Notes under the pieces: model-generated
The model's input: the letters and a program-made list of their open reading frames with translations, nothing else
Told to the model about the DNA's origin: nothing
Databases searched by the model: none
Shown here: positions 25,553-34,181 of the stretch, piece by piece
Layout: each line of letters starts with the position of its first letter
Position numbering within the stretch: the first letter of the stretch is position 1
NCBI GenBank assembly: GCA_026394555.1
Contig: JAPKXZ010000075.1
Coordinates: 62,001-126,000 of the forward strand
DNA: 64,000 nt
Source of the DNA: Methanothrix sp.
Lineage (GTDB): Archaea > Halobacteriota > Methanosarcinia > Methanotrichales > Methanotrichaceae
Direction: 5' to 3'
Translations under genes and position numbers: made by a program

Positions 25553-26291
25553 CTACTGCGAGGAGATAAAACTTTCCCCGCAATAGGCTCGCCCTGTGAC
25601 ATCCACTACCAGAGAGACAAGATCCTCCAGGCGGTTGATGTAGTAGACGCGGCCCAGGCTGGCCAGAGCTTCTTCCACGTGCTTATCCCCGTAAGCTTGG
25701 TCGATGCAGAAGAGCACGAAATTGCCCGCCACCGAGGCTTTTTTGATATCATCCCATTCCTGGTAAAGGTTCTGGATGTGGGTGTCGGTGATGCAGAGGA
25801 TCAGGCATCCGGGACGCTCTTCCGCCAGCGCTCTAATCGCCTTTCCCGGTATGTGGGTGCGAGTGGAGAAGAACTCTACTAGCACATCCTCCACGGCGTT
25901 AAGATCCCTCGTCCTGGGAAGGGCCAGATATTTTTCGCTGAAATTTATGGCCGCGATCTCAATGCAGTAGCTTTGATCGCGATACCAGTGCCGAAGGTCC
26001 CCCTTCAGGCCCAGAACGGCCAGCACCTCTTCATACTGGCAAAGGTCGAGGCCAGCGGCATAGTTCAAGGGCGCGTTATTGGCGTTGCCGTTCAAGATCT
26101 CCAGGCATCTGATCTAACCCGCGCCCCAGGACGCCGGGCAGAAACGGCTCCAGGATCTTTGCCGTCTGGCGGCACTGCCTCTGCCAGAGGCTCCGCTCTC
26201 TAATGTCTGGAGAAAAGACCCGTCCTAAAAAGGTGGCTACAGTGCCTGCGATATTAAAAACACGCGAATAAAGAGGAACAGCAAAAGCCAA
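25553..26291 (-). pseudogene. decayed vWA-domain protein gene
   Basis: Two frames carry consecutive parts of one protein family. The upstream frame (to 26076) encodes QTAKILEPFLPGVLGRGLDQ. The downstream frame (26095-25553) continues with PLNYAAGLDLCQYEEVLAVL and ends as a vWA domain (AVEDVLVEFF, GCLILCITDTHIQNLYQEWD, NFVLFCIDQ). The frames overlap by about 20 bases, so a frameshift separates them. The downstream part jumps from a YRDQSY segment straight to AAINFSEKY; the MIDAS motif DxSxS that should lie before the latter is absent, which implies an internal deletion. The 180-residue frame could still be translated. Confidence 0.6.
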
Positions 26292-26325
26292 TGATGTAGG
26301 AGGGAATAAAATGCTTGACTTTTGC
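26281..26325 (+). other. array hairpin 1
   Basis: Stem of 7 bp (GCAAAAG/CTTTTGC). The loop contains GTAGGAGGGAATAAA followed by ATG at the foot of the right arm. That ATG would give the heptapeptide MLDFCQY before a TAG. It is the most diverged copy. Confidence 0.6.
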
Positions 26326-26391
26326 CAATATTAGTTACGACGCCTGACGAATATAAGCTTTTCGCCTTAGGCGATCAACGTGGTTGATAAT

Positions 26392-26445
26392 GGGAGGGAG
26401 CAAAAGTCGATTCCTTGGGAGGGATTGTGATCTTTCGACCTTTGC
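26392..26445 (+). other. array hairpin 2
   Basis: Stem of 11 positions with one mismatch (GCAAAAGTCGA/TCGACCTTTGC). GGGAGGG occurs both just before the left arm (26392) and in the loop (26417), so four GGG tracts fall within 32 bases and a G-quadruplex is an alternative fold. The loop GGAGGGA stands before GTG 26427. Confidence 0.65.
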
Positions 26446-26516
26446 TTAAAACCATAACGACATTAAACGAATATAAGATTATCGGTCTGAAAAAGCCTTT
26501 CTTGCATCTTGCTAGA

Positions 26517-26572
26517 AGGAGGGAGGGCAAAAGTCCACTTTGTAGGAGGGATTGATGGTCATCGACTTTTGC
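26517..26572 (+). other. array hairpin 3
   Basis: Perfect 9-bp stem GCAAAAGTC/GACTTTTGC. The loop has GTAGGAGGGATT, and the left arm is preceded by GGAGGGAGGG. An ATG (26555) starts four bases after the loop GGAGGGA and opens the leader frame described separately. Confidence 0.7.
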
Positions 26573-26665
26573 CTTAAACCAACTTCGACATATGACGTTA
26601 TAAACCTTTTGGTGGCGTTCCAAAAGCTCTCGAATCAGGCAAAAGAGTCAATACATTTGCCGTAG
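26555..26665 (+). CDS. possible 36-residue leader peptide before phosphofructokinase
   Basis: ATG 26555 follows GGAGGGA with four bases between. The frame reads MVIDFCLKPTSTYDVINLLV and continues to a TAG at 26663-26665, only 12 bases before the ATG of the phosphofructokinase gene. The start of the peptide (IDFC) is encoded by the right arm of hairpin 3, and hairpin 1 similarly encodes MLDFC. This could be a translated leader, or a frame fixed by the hairpin itself. Confidence 0.35.
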   Translation: MVIDFCLKPTSTYDVINLLVAFQKLSNQAKESIHLP

Positions 26666-26677
26666 AGATAATCAATT

Positions 26678-27616
26678 ATGATCTACACGATTACCCTCAA
26701 TCCGGCCCTGGATCGAACCCTCTGGATCCAGAAGGTACGCGATGATGTATCCAATCGCATCTTGGAGGAGAAGACCTTCGCAGGAGGCAAAAGCGTTGAT
26801 GTCTCTAAAGTGCTCAAGAATCTGGGTGTGGACAACATAGCGTTAGGATTCGTGGGAGGCTTCGCCGGCCGGGAGCTGGAGGGTAGATTGCTCAACGAGG
26901 GCATTCAGACGGATTTTGTTCATGTCTCGGGCGAGACGCGCACCAACATCATCATCCACGAGAAGGAGACGGGAAAGCAACTGGCCTTTAATGCCCGTGG
27001 CCCGGAGGTAAAGCCGTCTGAACTTATGGAGTTCGTGGAGCTGCTGGAAAGGCTGCCTTGCAGCGATCTGGTGGCCATTGGGGGCAGCCTTCCCCTGGGC
27101 GTCACCCCTGAGATTTACCGAAAGATCATAACAATAGTAAAGAGGTGCCAGTCCACTGTGGTGCTGGATGTGGATGGCGTTGCCCTTCGCGCCGGAATTT
27201 TGGCCCGACCCGATGTCATCAAACCCAATATTCATGAGCTGTCCGAGCTGGTGGGCAAAGAGCTCGATGGTCTGGATGAGGTCCGAGCTGCCGCTCGAGA
27301 GATCAACCGGCAGGGCGTAAGAATCGTTCTCGTATCCATGGGGGGAAAAGGCATCCTGCTGGTCTCGGAAGGCCAGGAGTATCTGGCCGTGCCGCCCAAT
27401 GTGGATGTGCAGAGCACCATTGGAGCGGGAGACTCCTCCGTGGCAGGCTTCATAAGCGGCCTGATGCAGGGCAAGAGTCTGAAAGAGTGCCTGGTCTATG
27501 CTGCCGCAGCCGGGACGGCTACCACTCTACATCAGGGTACGGCCCTGGCCCAAAAGGAAGATTTCGAGCGGTTGGTGCCACAGGTGAAGCTGACTGTACT
27601 CTCCGAGAGGGCATAA
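26678..27616 (+). CDS. PfkB/FruK-family phosphofructokinase
   Basis: A 312-residue ribokinase-fold sugar kinase of the 1-phosphofructokinase/LacC/PfkB branch. It shows the N-terminal TLNPALDRTLWI, substrate loop AGGKSVDVSKVLKNLG, and the catalytic anion hole and base TIGAGDSSVAGF. It should phosphorylate fructose 6-phosphate or fructose 1-phosphate with ATP; the next gene is an aldolase, which favours production of fructose 1,6-bisphosphate. ATG 26678 has no strong ribosome site, in contrast to the GGAGGGA loops upstream. The stop overlaps the aldolase start (TAATG). Confidence 0.88.
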   Translation: MIYTITLNPALDRTLWIQKVRDDVSNRILEEKTFAGGKSVDVSKVLKNLGVDNIALGFVGGFAGRELEGRLLNEGIQTDFVHVSGETRTNIIIHEKETGKQLAFNARGPEVKPSELMEFVELLERLPCSDLVAIGGSLPLGVTPEIYRKIITIVKRCQSTVVLDVDGVALRAGILARPDVIKPNIHELSELVGKELDGLDEVRAAAREINRQGVRIVLVSMGGKGILLVSEGQEYLAVPPNVDVQSTIGAGDSSVAGFISGLMQGKSLKECLVYAAAAGTATTLHQGTALAQKEDFERLVPQVKLTVLSERA

Positions 27617-30527: not shown

Positions 30528-33500
30528 ATGCCCGCCGATCCTGTTGCCAAATGGGCGGAGTTCCTCCGCTCCCGTTACTGGGATGAGCTGCTGAAGCTGG
30601 CCGACTCCTACCCCGACGAGCGCAGCCTGAAGATTCGCTTCTCAGACATTGACAAGTTCGATTCCGAATTTGCCGAGGAGCTGCTGGAAAACCCGGAGCA
30701 GATCCTGGAGGCGGCCCACGCTGCCCTCCTGGAGCTGGACCTGCCCATGGATGTTTACATGGACCGGGCCCATGTGCGCATCGTGGAATTGCCCCGTCAT
30801 TTCAAGACCCGTGAGCTAAGAAGCGATCACATCGGCAAATTACTGGCCATCGACGGGCTGGTGCGCACCGCCACCGAGGTCCGGCCCAAGATCATCTCTG
30901 CCGCTTTCCAGTGCCAGAGGTGCGGCTTCACCTTCTTCAAGGAGCAGGCGGGCAACAAATTCGAGGACCAGAGCCTCAAGTGCATGAACCAGGCCTGCGA
31001 CCGGGGCGGCCCCTTCAAGCTCTTGCTGGCCCAGTCCAAGTTCGTGGATGCCCAGAAGATCAGGGTGCAGGAGTCCCCTGAGGACTTGCGGGGTGGAGCG
31101 CAGCCGCAGACGCTGGACGTCGAGCTGGAGGACGACCTGGCCGGCAGGATCTTTCCCGGCGACCGCGTTATCGTCAACGGCATACTCAGGTCCTATCAGC
31201 GCTCTTCTCCTCAGCAGGGCAAGAGCACCTACTTTGACCTCGTTCACAAAGGCATCAGTGTGGAGATGACGGAGCAGGAGTTCGAGGATATTGAGATCGA
31301 TCCCGAGGAGGAGAGGCAGATCATGGAGATGTCCTGTGATCCGGAGATCTACGAAAAGATCCGTGGATCCATCGCTCCCTCCATCTACGGCTACGACGAT
31401 GTGAAAGAGGCGTTAGCGCTGCAATTGGTCTCCGGCTTCGAAAAGCACCTGCCGGACGGAGCGCGCATTCGCGGCGACATCCACATCTTGCTGGTGGGCG
31501 ATCCAGGGATTGCCAAATCTCAGCTCTTGCGTTACATGATCAAGATCTCGCCTCGCGGCATCTACACCTCGGGCAAGAGCTCCACCTCTGCCGGCCTGAC
31601 AGCCACTGCGGTCAAGGATGAGTTGGGCGACGGACGATGGACCATCGAGGCCGGAGCACTGGTTCTGGCGGACAAGGGCATCGCCGCCATAGACGAGATG
31701 GACAAGATGGACAACGAGGACAAGAGCGCACTGCACGAGGCCATGGAGCAGCAGAGCTATCATCCTCTAACAGAGATCCAGCTAGCCGACGGGCGAAAGG
31801 CGCGTATCGGCGAGTTTGTAGACCGGATGATGGCGGACCGGCCTTTAGATATAAGTCCTGGAAAGGACTGCGAGATACTGCCGCTCCATGAGGATGTTAA
31901 AATAAAAAGCACCGACATGAGCCGCATCTTCGATCTGCCGGTTGATAGAGTGAGCAGGCATCGGGCTCCAAGTCATTTTATAAAAATTAGATATTCCAAT
32001 GGCCGCGAAATAATTGTTACTCCGGAGCACCCGATATACATTGCGAAAGACGGAATTGCATGTGTACCAGCCTGCGATGCCAAAGTTGGATACTATGCGC
32101 CCGCCCCAAGATCGCTTCCGATTAATGAAAATTCTAGAAACCTCATTCAAGTTAAGAGGCAGCATTCTGGCGAAAAGCTACTGACCTTTCCCGAAAAGCT
32201 CAATCGCGACCTCGCTAGAATCCTGGGATATCTCCTTGCGGAGGGCCATTTTTACAAAGGCTCCAGCCATGAGATCGGCTTTACAAACAAGGATGAAGGC
32301 CTACTTAAGGAAATGTCGAGCCTCATGCAAAAGTCATTTGGCATTGAAGCATCTCGGAACCAAAGAAGCGACGGCGTAGTCACCCTGAGGTTCATATCAA
32401 CTCATTTGTTCAGATGGTTCGAGGCTAATTTTCTAGAGATGATGCAAACTGGAAGAGGAAGACGAATGCCTGTTGCCGTCTTTCAGGGGACAAAGGATAA
32501 TATTAAAGATGTATTAATCGCAGCATTTCTTGGCGATGGCTGTGTGCACTCAACTTCAGTCGCTTATTCAACCGTATCACGTGGACTAGCTGAAGATTAT
32601 CAGGATCTGCTTCTCAGGCTTGGCATATCATCAAGAATCTACATGGACCGGAAAGCAAATGCCTTCAAAGTCTGCATAATGGGCGATTCACATAAGAAGT
32701 TCGAGCAGCTTTTCTTCGAGCCCGGTTACGAGAAGCTAGAAAGGATGAGGTGCATCACTTCGGCATGTAGCAGGTCCATTCGCCATCATGATGTTCTTCC
32801 GACGGAGACGGCCTATTCAATATTACAAATGAAAAAGTCTTTGGGCCTCACGAATGACGGACGCTTTAATGAGCACTTGGACAACGGATATGGATTGACC
32901 ATTGATAAGGTGGCGGAATATGCTTCGGATCTGAAGAACAGATATAATGATGTGATGACCTTCATAAATGACGATTTAACTCTGCTTGAAATGAGGTCAG
33001 AATTGGGCTGGTCACAGAGTTACCTGGCATCTGTGGCTGGAGTTACACGGGGGAATATCAATTACTACGAACAAGGCGGCTATGATGAGTCAAGAAGGAC
33101 CGCAATAGCAAGAAATATTTTCCAGCGAATCCATGCCCACTTGGAAGAAACCGGCATGAGTATTAAAGCTCTTGAAGATAAGCTCTCCTCGGATATCAGA
33201 TATCTTAGGATCACTGATGTAAAAGTTGTTCCAAATGAGGACCAATACTTCGCAGATTATGTTTATGATGTAACTGTCGAGCCCACCCATACCTTCATCT
33301 CGCAAGGCATTGTTCTGCACAATACCATCAGCGTCGCCAAGGCAGGTGTCATGGCCACTCTCAAGTCGCGCTGCTCACTGCTCGCTGCCGCCAATCCCAA
33401 GCTGGGCCGCTTCGACAAGTTCGAGCCCATCGCCCCCCAGATCAACCTCACTCCTGCACTCATGTCCCGTTTCGATCTGATCTTCGTTTTGACCGACGAT

Positions 33501-34181
33501 CCGGACACCAAGAGGGATTCGGCCATTGCTCAACACATCCTGAAGAGCAACTATGCGGGTGAGCTGGCTACCCAAGCCGCCTGGAACCCGGATATCTCTC
33601 AAGAGGACATCGACAATGCCCTGATGGTGATAATGCCGGTCATTGATCCGGAGATGCTGCGAAAGTATGTGGCCTATGCCCGAAAGAACATATTCCCAAC
33701 CTTGAGTGATGGGGCCAAAGATTACTTCCTCAAGTACTACGTCGGTCTGCGCAGCCAAGGCCAGGACTCCAACAAGCCTGTGCCCGTCACCGCCCGGCAA
33801 CTGGAGGCGCTCATACGCCTGGGTGAGGCCAGCGCTCGCCTTCGCCTCTCCGATAAAGTCACCCTGGATGATGCCAAGCGGGTAGTCAAGATCCTAGAAG
33901 CATGTCTGCGGAAAGTTGGCGTCGATCCGGAGACGGGCTTTTTGGATGCTGACATCATTGCCTCTGGCACCACCAAGAGCACCAGAGATAGAACCAAATC
34001 GGTGATCGACATCATAAGGGATGTGAGCCGTGAGCAACAGGGCCCGGCCCCCAGGGACGCCGTCCTGGACAGAGCCGTGGAGCTGGGCATAGAAAGAGCT
34101 AAAGCGGAAGAGATCATAGACCGCATGAGAAGAGATGGGGACGTATTTGAGCCCAGGCCGGGAATGCTGAAGCTGCCTTAA
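30528..34181 (+). CDS. mcm: MCM replicative helicase containing an intein
   Basis: A 1217-residue precursor; the spliced protein would be 694 residues, the usual archaeal MCM size. The N-terminal part has the OB fold and zinc finger (CQRC ... CMNQAC, residues 127-154). The AAA+ core has Walker A GDPGIAKSQ, Walker B LADKGIAAIDEMDKM and arginine finger MSRFDLIF. A winged helix ends the protein. An intein interrupts the core between EAMEQQ and TISVAKAG. MCM unwinds DNA at forks. DUF424 and NMD3 genes follow, then dnaG. Confidence 0.96.
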   Translation: MPADPVAKWAEFLRSRYWDELLKLADSYPDERSLKIRFSDIDKFDSEFAEELLENPEQILEAAHAALLELDLPMDVYMDRAHVRIVELPRHFKTRELRSDHIGKLLAIDGLVRTATEVRPKIISAAFQCQRCGFTFFKEQAGNKFEDQSLKCMNQACDRGGPFKLLLAQSKFVDAQKIRVQESPEDLRGGAQPQTLDVELEDDLAGRIFPGDRVIVNGILRSYQRSSPQQGKSTYFDLVHKGISVEMTEQEFEDIEIDPEEERQIMEMSCDPEIYEKIRGSIAPSIYGYDDVKEALALQLVSGFEKHLPDGARIRGDIHILLVGDPGIAKSQLLRYMIKISPRGIYTSGKSSTSAGLTATAVKDELGDGRWTIEAGALVLADKGIAAIDEMDKMDNEDKSALHEAMEQQSYHPLTEIQLADGRKARIGEFVDRMMADRPLDISPGKDCEILPLHEDVKIKSTDMSRIFDLPVDRVSRHRAPSHFIKIRYSNGREIIVTPEHPIYIAKDGIACVPACDAKVGYYAPAPRSLPINENSRNLIQVKRQHSGEKLLTFPEKLNRDLARILGYLLAEGHFYKGSSHEIGFTNKDEGLLKEMSSLMQKSFGIEASRNQRSDGVVTLRFISTHLFRWFEANFLEMMQTGRGRRMPVAVFQGTKDNIKDVLIAAFLGDGCVHSTSVAYSTVSRGLAEDYQDLLLRLGISSRIYMDRKANAFKVCIMGDSHKKFEQLFFEPGYEKLERMRCITSACSRSIRHHDVLPTETAYSILQMKKSLGLTNDGRFNEHLDNGYGLTIDKVAEYASDLKNRYNDVMTFINDDLTLLEMRSELGWSQSYLASVAGVTRGNINYYEQGGYDESRRTAIARNIFQRIHAHLEETGMSIKALEDKLSSDIRYLRITDVKVVPNEDQYFADYVYDVTVEPTHTFISQGIVLHNTISVAKAGVMATLKSRCSLLAAANPKLGRFDKFEPIAPQINLTPALMSRFDLIFVLTDDPDTKRDSAIAQHILKSNYAGELATQAAWNPDISQEDIDNALMVIMPVIDPEMLRKYVAYARKNIFPTLSDGAKDYFLKYYVGLRSQGQDSNKPVPVTARQLEALIRLGEASARLRLSDKVTLDDAKRVVKILEACLRKVGVDPETGFLDADIIASGTTKSTRDRTKSVIDIIRDVSREQQGPAPRDAVLDRAVELGIERAKAEEIIDRMRRDGDVFEPRPGMLKLP
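31755..33323 (+). mobile_element. intein with LAGLIDADG homing endonuclease in mcm
   Basis: A 523-residue in-frame insertion from Ser (codon 31755) to His-Asn (ends 33323), with Thr as the +1 residue. Splicing block A reads SYHPLTEIQLADGRKARIGE, block B includes IIVTPEHPIYI, and blocks F/G are VYDVTVEPTHTFIS and GIVLHN. The endonuclease motifs are LGYLLAEGHF and LIAAFLGDGCV. A helix-turn-helix (WSQSYLASVAGVTRGNINYY) lies near the end. Its DNA is clearly more AT-rich than the mcm exteins, as expected for a recently mobile element. The first residue is Ser, not Cys. Confidence 0.93.

Follow-up and report, generated by a model that had tools for sequence, protein, structure and literature searches.

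The window, by which we mean the whole 64,000-nucleotide stretch of Methanothrix DNA analyzed here, appears to carry three tandem minus-strand genes of a multicopy family of trans-acting, anti-Shine-Dalgarno (anti-SD) small RNAs (sRNAs) that would be co-regulated and would repress translation, and we put the probability of this reading at roughly 0.7. By sequence evidence, the family is a real, multicopy archaeal sRNA family and apparently an undescribed one: Rfam release 15 contains no family matching the hairpins at either gathering or relaxed thresholds, and no description of the family was found in the open literature searched. As a sequence-only reading of this DNA had described, the window contains three hairpins that are nearly identical; they occupy 26281-26326, 26399-26446, and 26526-26573, are spaced by 119 and 127 nt, and are built around the same 7-nt loop core. 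Because their folding energies are unremarkable relative to those of shuffled sequences (z of -0.4 to -1.7 on the plus strand), folding energy was rejected as proof of the structures. It is conservation, and not the window alone, that proves the hairpins real: nine further copies in the host genome at E <= 1e-4, together with copies in all 50 Methanotrichaceae genomes, place them far beyond chance.

Each copy has, on the minus strand, a BRE (CCGAAA), a TATA element (CTTATAT or TTTATA), and the conserved dyad TCGNCAAWTGNCGTA. After an unconserved gap of about 10 bases come a GGCAAAAGUC stem, the loop UCCCUCCUAC, a GACUUUUGCC stem, and the tail CUCCCUCCUUUUU; in an alignment of 111 copies, the consensus past the gap reads GGCAAAAGUCGA, a variable stretch, UCCCUCCUACA, a second variable stretch, GACUUUUGCC, and UCCCUCCUUUUU. 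The box that had been read as AATATAAG upstream of each hairpin is really a minus-strand CTTATATT, accompanied by a BRE. The TATA element precedes the minus-strand hairpin by about 24 nt, and BRE and TATA stand at a fixed distance ahead of the RNA, which is the arrangement of an independent archaeal sRNA gene. In the information profile, conservation covers the promoter elements (BRE and TATA), the dyad, the stem, the core of the loop, and the tail and is absent from the gap just before the predicted start. Small independent transcription units would be expected to show this pattern, in which promoter and transcript are conserved and the gap between them is not. Judged from the usual TATA-to-start distance in archaea, transcription would begin near the GGC of the stem.

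All parts of the three units lie on the minus strand. In unit 1, the BRE (ACCAAAAGG) and TATA (TTTATAA) occupy 26598-26614 and the dyad ACGTCATATGTCGAA, a possible operator between TATA and the predicted start, occupies 26584-26598; the predicted sRNA covers 26513-26573, with stem halves GGCAAAAGTC and GACTTTTGCC (26573-26564 with 26535-26526), the loop anti-SD sequence TCCCTCCTAC at 26551-26542, and the tail CCTCCCTCCTTCT. The promoter of unit 2, with BRE (ACCGATAA) and TATA (CTTATAT), lies at 26471-26487 and its dyad TCGTTTAATGTCG, again a possible operator, at 26458-26470, ahead of a predicted sRNA at 26387-26446 whose stem, AGCAAAGGTCGA and TCGACTTTTGCT, includes one G.U pair and whose loop ATCCCTCCCA (26425-26416) is followed by the tail CTCCCTCCCATTAT. 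Unit 3 has its BRE (GGCGAAAAG) and TATA (CTTATAT) at 26351-26366, a dyad and possible operator TCGTCAGGCGTCGTA at 26336-26350, and a predicted sRNA at 26267-26326 with the stem GGCAAAAGTCAA and TTGGCTTTTGC, the loop TTCCCTCCTAC at 26306-26296, and a weaker tail, TGTTCCTCTTTATT. The unit 1 TATA itself (TTTATAA, 26598-26604) is near-symmetric and may also serve pfkB on the plus strand.

The base pairs of the stem identify the strand. Among 110 distinct copies read on the minus strand, the stem cells comprise 989 Watson-Crick pairs, 84 G.U pairs, and 6 A.C combinations; the 84 G.U cells would become mismatches if the opposite strand were read, which identifies the minus strand as the functional one. 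Counted on the named structure, 98.4% of cells are paired, two-sided changes occur in 5 of 10 pairs, and none of 500 shuffles equals this result. The weak covariation of the stem halves that had been noted is correct within the window, and true two-sided changes emerge across families: aligning the three window units with 17 relatives of other families, four families in all, gives 98.6% paired cells, with two-sided changes at 4 pairs versus 0 in every slid control, and one relative (L154) has a complete C-G to U-A exchange in its stem. Fitting of alignment A2 to the model favors the model's structure; the stems in it are unambiguous by eye. The earlier proposal of serial small RNAs with promoters of their own is strongly supported by sequence, on the strand opposite to the one it had assumed.

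Promoter orientation and the strand test also change the identity of the loop, which had been read as GGAGGGA and on the minus strand is its complement, UCCCUCC, so that loop and tail alike are anti-SD sequences. In the predicted fold, the anti-SD core lies in the loop of 104 of 106 copies, with a median unpaired probability of 0.99, and in the tail of 88 of 106 (median of 0.99 or more), an exposed motif such as defines the cuckoo, ar14, and ar15 RNAs. Within the window, the predicted loop of unit 2 is less open (0.4-0.5) and its tail is open, and the tail of unit 3 lacks the full anti-SD core. The host makes use of SD sequences, with GGAG/GAGG clustered 3-13 nt before unambiguous ATGs in a position profile of 55 genes. 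Given this clustering and the exposure of the core in predicted loops and tails, the RNAs most likely act in trans by blocking ribosome-binding sites.

For transcription, targets, repression, and regulation, we infer the following scheme. Each unit would yield an RNA of some 60-65 nt from a BRE/TATA promoter of its own. The RNA is predicted to form a 10-12 bp hairpin with UCCCUCC displayed in its loop; the single-stranded tail after the hairpin, CUCCCUCCUUUUU, would provide a second anti-SD site and probably also an oligo-U stop. Loop and tail would pair in trans with GGAGG SD sequences and block 30S binding, which would lower the translation of sets of mRNAs. Variation around the loop core would give the copies overlapping yet different targets, and the palindrome common to the promoters, in the interval between TATA and start, would allow one DNA-binding regulator to switch the whole set. 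Within the roughly 430 kb of host sequence examined, the strict palindrome CGNCAAWTGNCG is present at four sRNA promoters and in two other places only; because it is almost confined to sRNA promoters in this sampled part, a dedicated regulator acting at the dyad (form TCGTCAATTGACGTA, a candidate operator) is plausible.

With regard to targets, orthologous units of the array preserve their loop flanks from one species to another, which suggests that the units have individual targets. The anti-start-codon triplet CAT precedes the loop core in 40 of 105 copies versus about 21 expected, an enrichment of only about twofold. The best predicted duplexes, computed over 430 kb of one genome without a null model, involve fpoH, an fpoK-like gene, and a formate/nitrite transporter, the fpo genes being named by eye. 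A cross-genome search with the unit 1 loop complement gave no convincing conserved initiation-site target, its near-matches falling mostly off start sites and one of them apparently within the coding region of a conserved gene. An extended unit 1 target, TAGGAGGGATTGATGG, searched with at most 2 mismatches in 9 genomes, was rejected as its recurring match apparently lies inside HDAC-like coding sequence.

The sequence of the stem is nearly invariant across copies, and this conservation is stronger than simple mRNA base pairing needs, which suggests that something besides mRNA pairing also reads the stem itself. An alternative built on this feature is that the RNAs are real and made from the minus strand, but that the partner of their C-rich sites is the ribosome itself or a protein and not individual mRNAs, in which case they would be decoy or storage RNAs with the invariant stem as a protein-binding handle. 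The generic loop core, for which no clear conserved target was found, is in keeping with such a role, and DUF1699 genes, recurrent near the copies, offer a candidate partner. We nevertheless consider this explanation unlikely, in that the core is exactly anti-SD and is exposed in both loop and tail of the predicted fold, and in that the preserved loop flanks of orthologous units point to individual targets. DUF1699 (PF08004) is encoded about 0.1-1.6 kb from sRNA copies in many genomes, in several arrangements and partly co-duplicated (L010:440-874, L008:493-927, L011, L024, L026, L031, L076, L085, L110, L115, L118, L123, and L202). Among 14 named control genomes, it is found in Methanosarcina acetivorans only, and its matches to solved structures are weak ones to ribosomal protein S6 alone (E = 0.002); it is a possible partner or regulator of the sRNA family.

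The trans-acting reading also draws on the distribution of the family. The host genome (G000; 2.5 Mb in 75 contigs) contains 12 copies by covariance model R1 at E <= 1e-4, and the covariance-model search of related genomes that the sequence-only reading had proposed finds copies in 50 of 50 Methanotrichaceae genomes, at 2-18 per genome with models R1 and R2. Across 238 genomes of the class, model R2 alone detects 3-16 copies in each of the 50 Methanotrichaceae, mostly one and rarely two copies per positive genome in three other families, and no copy in several families. One copy is the usual number in Methanoperedenaceae, ANME-2, and many Methanosarcinaceae. A pattern scan of public genomes supplied the names Methanosaeta/Methanothrix, Candidatus Methanoperedens, ANME-2, and Methanosarcinaceae (for example Methanolobus and Methanomethylovorans), with group labels tied to taxon names via sequence-type matching and not via the name on each genome. 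Three models and a pattern found no relative in the Methanosarcina-like genomes (group g18, presumed to be that genus). The archaeal loci of the public scan were confirmed by the model, and its bacterial matches were rejected, save weak two-strand palindromes. Two palindromes in the Thermoguttaceae MAG SKYB124 (L169 and L173) have the same stem pattern, weak on both strands, and are either an unrelated repeat or contamination. One outlier from beyond the class emerged when 295 genomes of the phylum were sampled: at L329:899-1018, on the minus strand, a similar hairpin has the anti-SD loop GUCCUCCUCCUACACC and the dyad TCGACAAATGAC; it represents either a distant relative or convergence.

Outside Methanotrichaceae, the tails of the single-copy relatives lack CCUCC, and the simplest history would be one ancestral RNA that was multiplied in Methanotrichaceae and gained its anti-SD tail there. 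The single copies have a stable location: those of Methanosarcinaceae (L124, L126, L141, L148, and others) lie close to a UPF0173/DUF2117-like pair and a sodium/solute symporter, and those of ANME-2 (L143, L147, and L149) adjoin pyruvate:ferredoxin oxidoreductase-like genes, with the genes named by eye. The high copy number, along with five host copies that have long flanks in common from recent duplication, could instead be taken to indicate a dispersed hairpin repeat or a non-autonomous mobile element without RNA function. This explanation is very unlikely, as old copies are alike in promoter and RNA only and in nothing beyond, the strand-specific G.U pattern and the two-sided changes show selection on the RNA, and the single copies are syntenic in Methanosarcinaceae and ANME-2.

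The array recurs upstream of phosphofructokinase in relatives, where its absence would have counted against the sequence-only reading. In 11 genomes from four genera it is a neighbor of pfkB-fba-gpm and is in every case divergent from pfkB, and in two further genomes single units lie beside pfkB; in the window, the divergent pfkB-family sugar kinase gene, whose position beside the array is syntenic in relatives, is at 26678-27616 on the plus strand. At 13 loci, the array or a copy is followed on the opposite flank by a gene for a MoxR-like AAA ATPase. The present genome lacks this gene, and the next open reading frame downstream of the array (25553-26095, minus strand) is a remnant of the region that follows it in relatives. 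The recurrence of the MoxR-like gene is consistent with a 5' leader of that gene or of pfkB, in which the hairpins would regulate translation or termination, and a leader hiding or displaying SD sequences had also been suggested. We find such a role scarcely credible. Because the array is divergent from pfkB, with its units pointing away from that gene, it is not a pfk leader, and in no syntenic locus do the units stand upstream of pfkB on the same strand, as a 5' leader or riboswitch would. The array persists here without the MoxR-like gene, and most copies lie elsewhere. Across 110 copies, the next downstream gene is on the same strand in 65 and opposed in 45, a mixed orientation that indicates stand-alone genes rather than leaders.

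The supposed fourth, reduced unit at pfkB proved to be a different hairpin, GGCAAA...TTTGCC at 26638-26661, that belongs to the pfkB leader on the plus strand. It is kept in the pfkB leaders of 5 genomes and has neither an anti-SD sequence nor a TATA element. It has GGCAAAAG in common with the sRNA stem and could bind the same factor. Elsewhere in the window, at 30528-34181 on the plus strand, an MCM helicase open reading frame of 1217 aa is apparently interrupted by an intein with a homing-endonuclease-like part, as judged by eye only.

A plus-strand RNA with GGAGGGA loops, serving as a CsrA-type sponge or for SD display, has the GGA core in its loop but comes close to negligible, given that TATA and BRE are oriented oppositely and that the 84 G.U stem cells would become A.C mismatches. 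The CsrB/RsmZ sponges do resemble the array in that both repeat a hairpin whose loop carries a short shared motif. Their GGA, however, is in the loop of the transcribed strand, where the Methanothrix units have CCU/CCUCC, and each Methanothrix unit is its own gene, so that the sponge suggested earlier does not fit.

We liken the predicted action of the Methanothrix RNAs to that of the alphaproteobacterial cuckoo/αr14 RNAs, whose sequences are unrelated. Cuckoo, CcsR, ar14 (NfeR1), and ar15 similarly have hairpin loops with an anti-SD CCUCC core and occur in several, including neighboring, copies. NfeR1 of Sinorhizobium was shown experimentally to silence mRNAs via redundant anti-SD motifs (PMC10746234), and CcsR1-4 are adjacent copies (PMC10253847). 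Whereas CcsR1-4 are cut from one transcript, the Methanothrix units have one promoter and one dyad per copy, and whereas ar14 as described has several hairpins per RNA with CCUCCUCCC in each loop, a Methanothrix unit has one hairpin and a single-stranded tail. Cuckoo, ar14, and ar15 moreover belong to another domain of life and have no detectable sequence relation to these units: the Rfam ar15 model scores the hairpins at 15.8 bits versus a cut-off of 40 (E = 1), and the cuckoo, ar14, and ar15 models yield nothing at gathering in the window and none in relatives.

Among archaea, the intergenic sRNA154 and sRNA41 of Methanosarcina mazei are reported to mask ribosome-binding sites (review, PMC5867862). 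They are set apart from the Methanothrix family by their description as single genes, and their host genus, as represented by group g18, presumed to be Methanosarcina, yielded no relative of the family in three tests. Methanolobus psychrophilus R15 has nine conserved cold-induced sRNAs with a promoter-linked "cold box" (PMC5378194) and thus, like the Methanothrix units, a set of similar sRNAs in a related methanogen that share a promoter-linked motif. The Methanolobus-type genomes searched have essentially one copy each of the Methanothrix family, so the nine cold-box sRNAs are probably another set.

A broader reading, which we hold only tentatively, is that Methanotrichaceae expanded an ancient archaeal sRNA, originally single-copy, into a dispersed regulon in which as many as 18 anti-SD RNAs share one dedicated palindromic operator. 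Such a regulon would be a global and tunable brake on SD-led translation, and DUF1699, a protein of Methanosarcinales type that is a recurrent neighbor of copies, would be its regulator or RNA-binding partner. To our knowledge, the targets of only a few archaeal sRNAs are known, and multicopy families of anti-SD sRNAs are on record from alphaproteobacteria. The present family is found in every Methanotrichaceae genome searched, including those of the acetate-using methanogen Methanothrix, with relatives in the methane-oxidizing Methanoperedens and in ANME-2. The covariance model can be used to annotate such RNAs and the palindrome as bait for a dedicated regulator, and the family makes the control of archaeal translation by many redundant RNAs a testable proposition.
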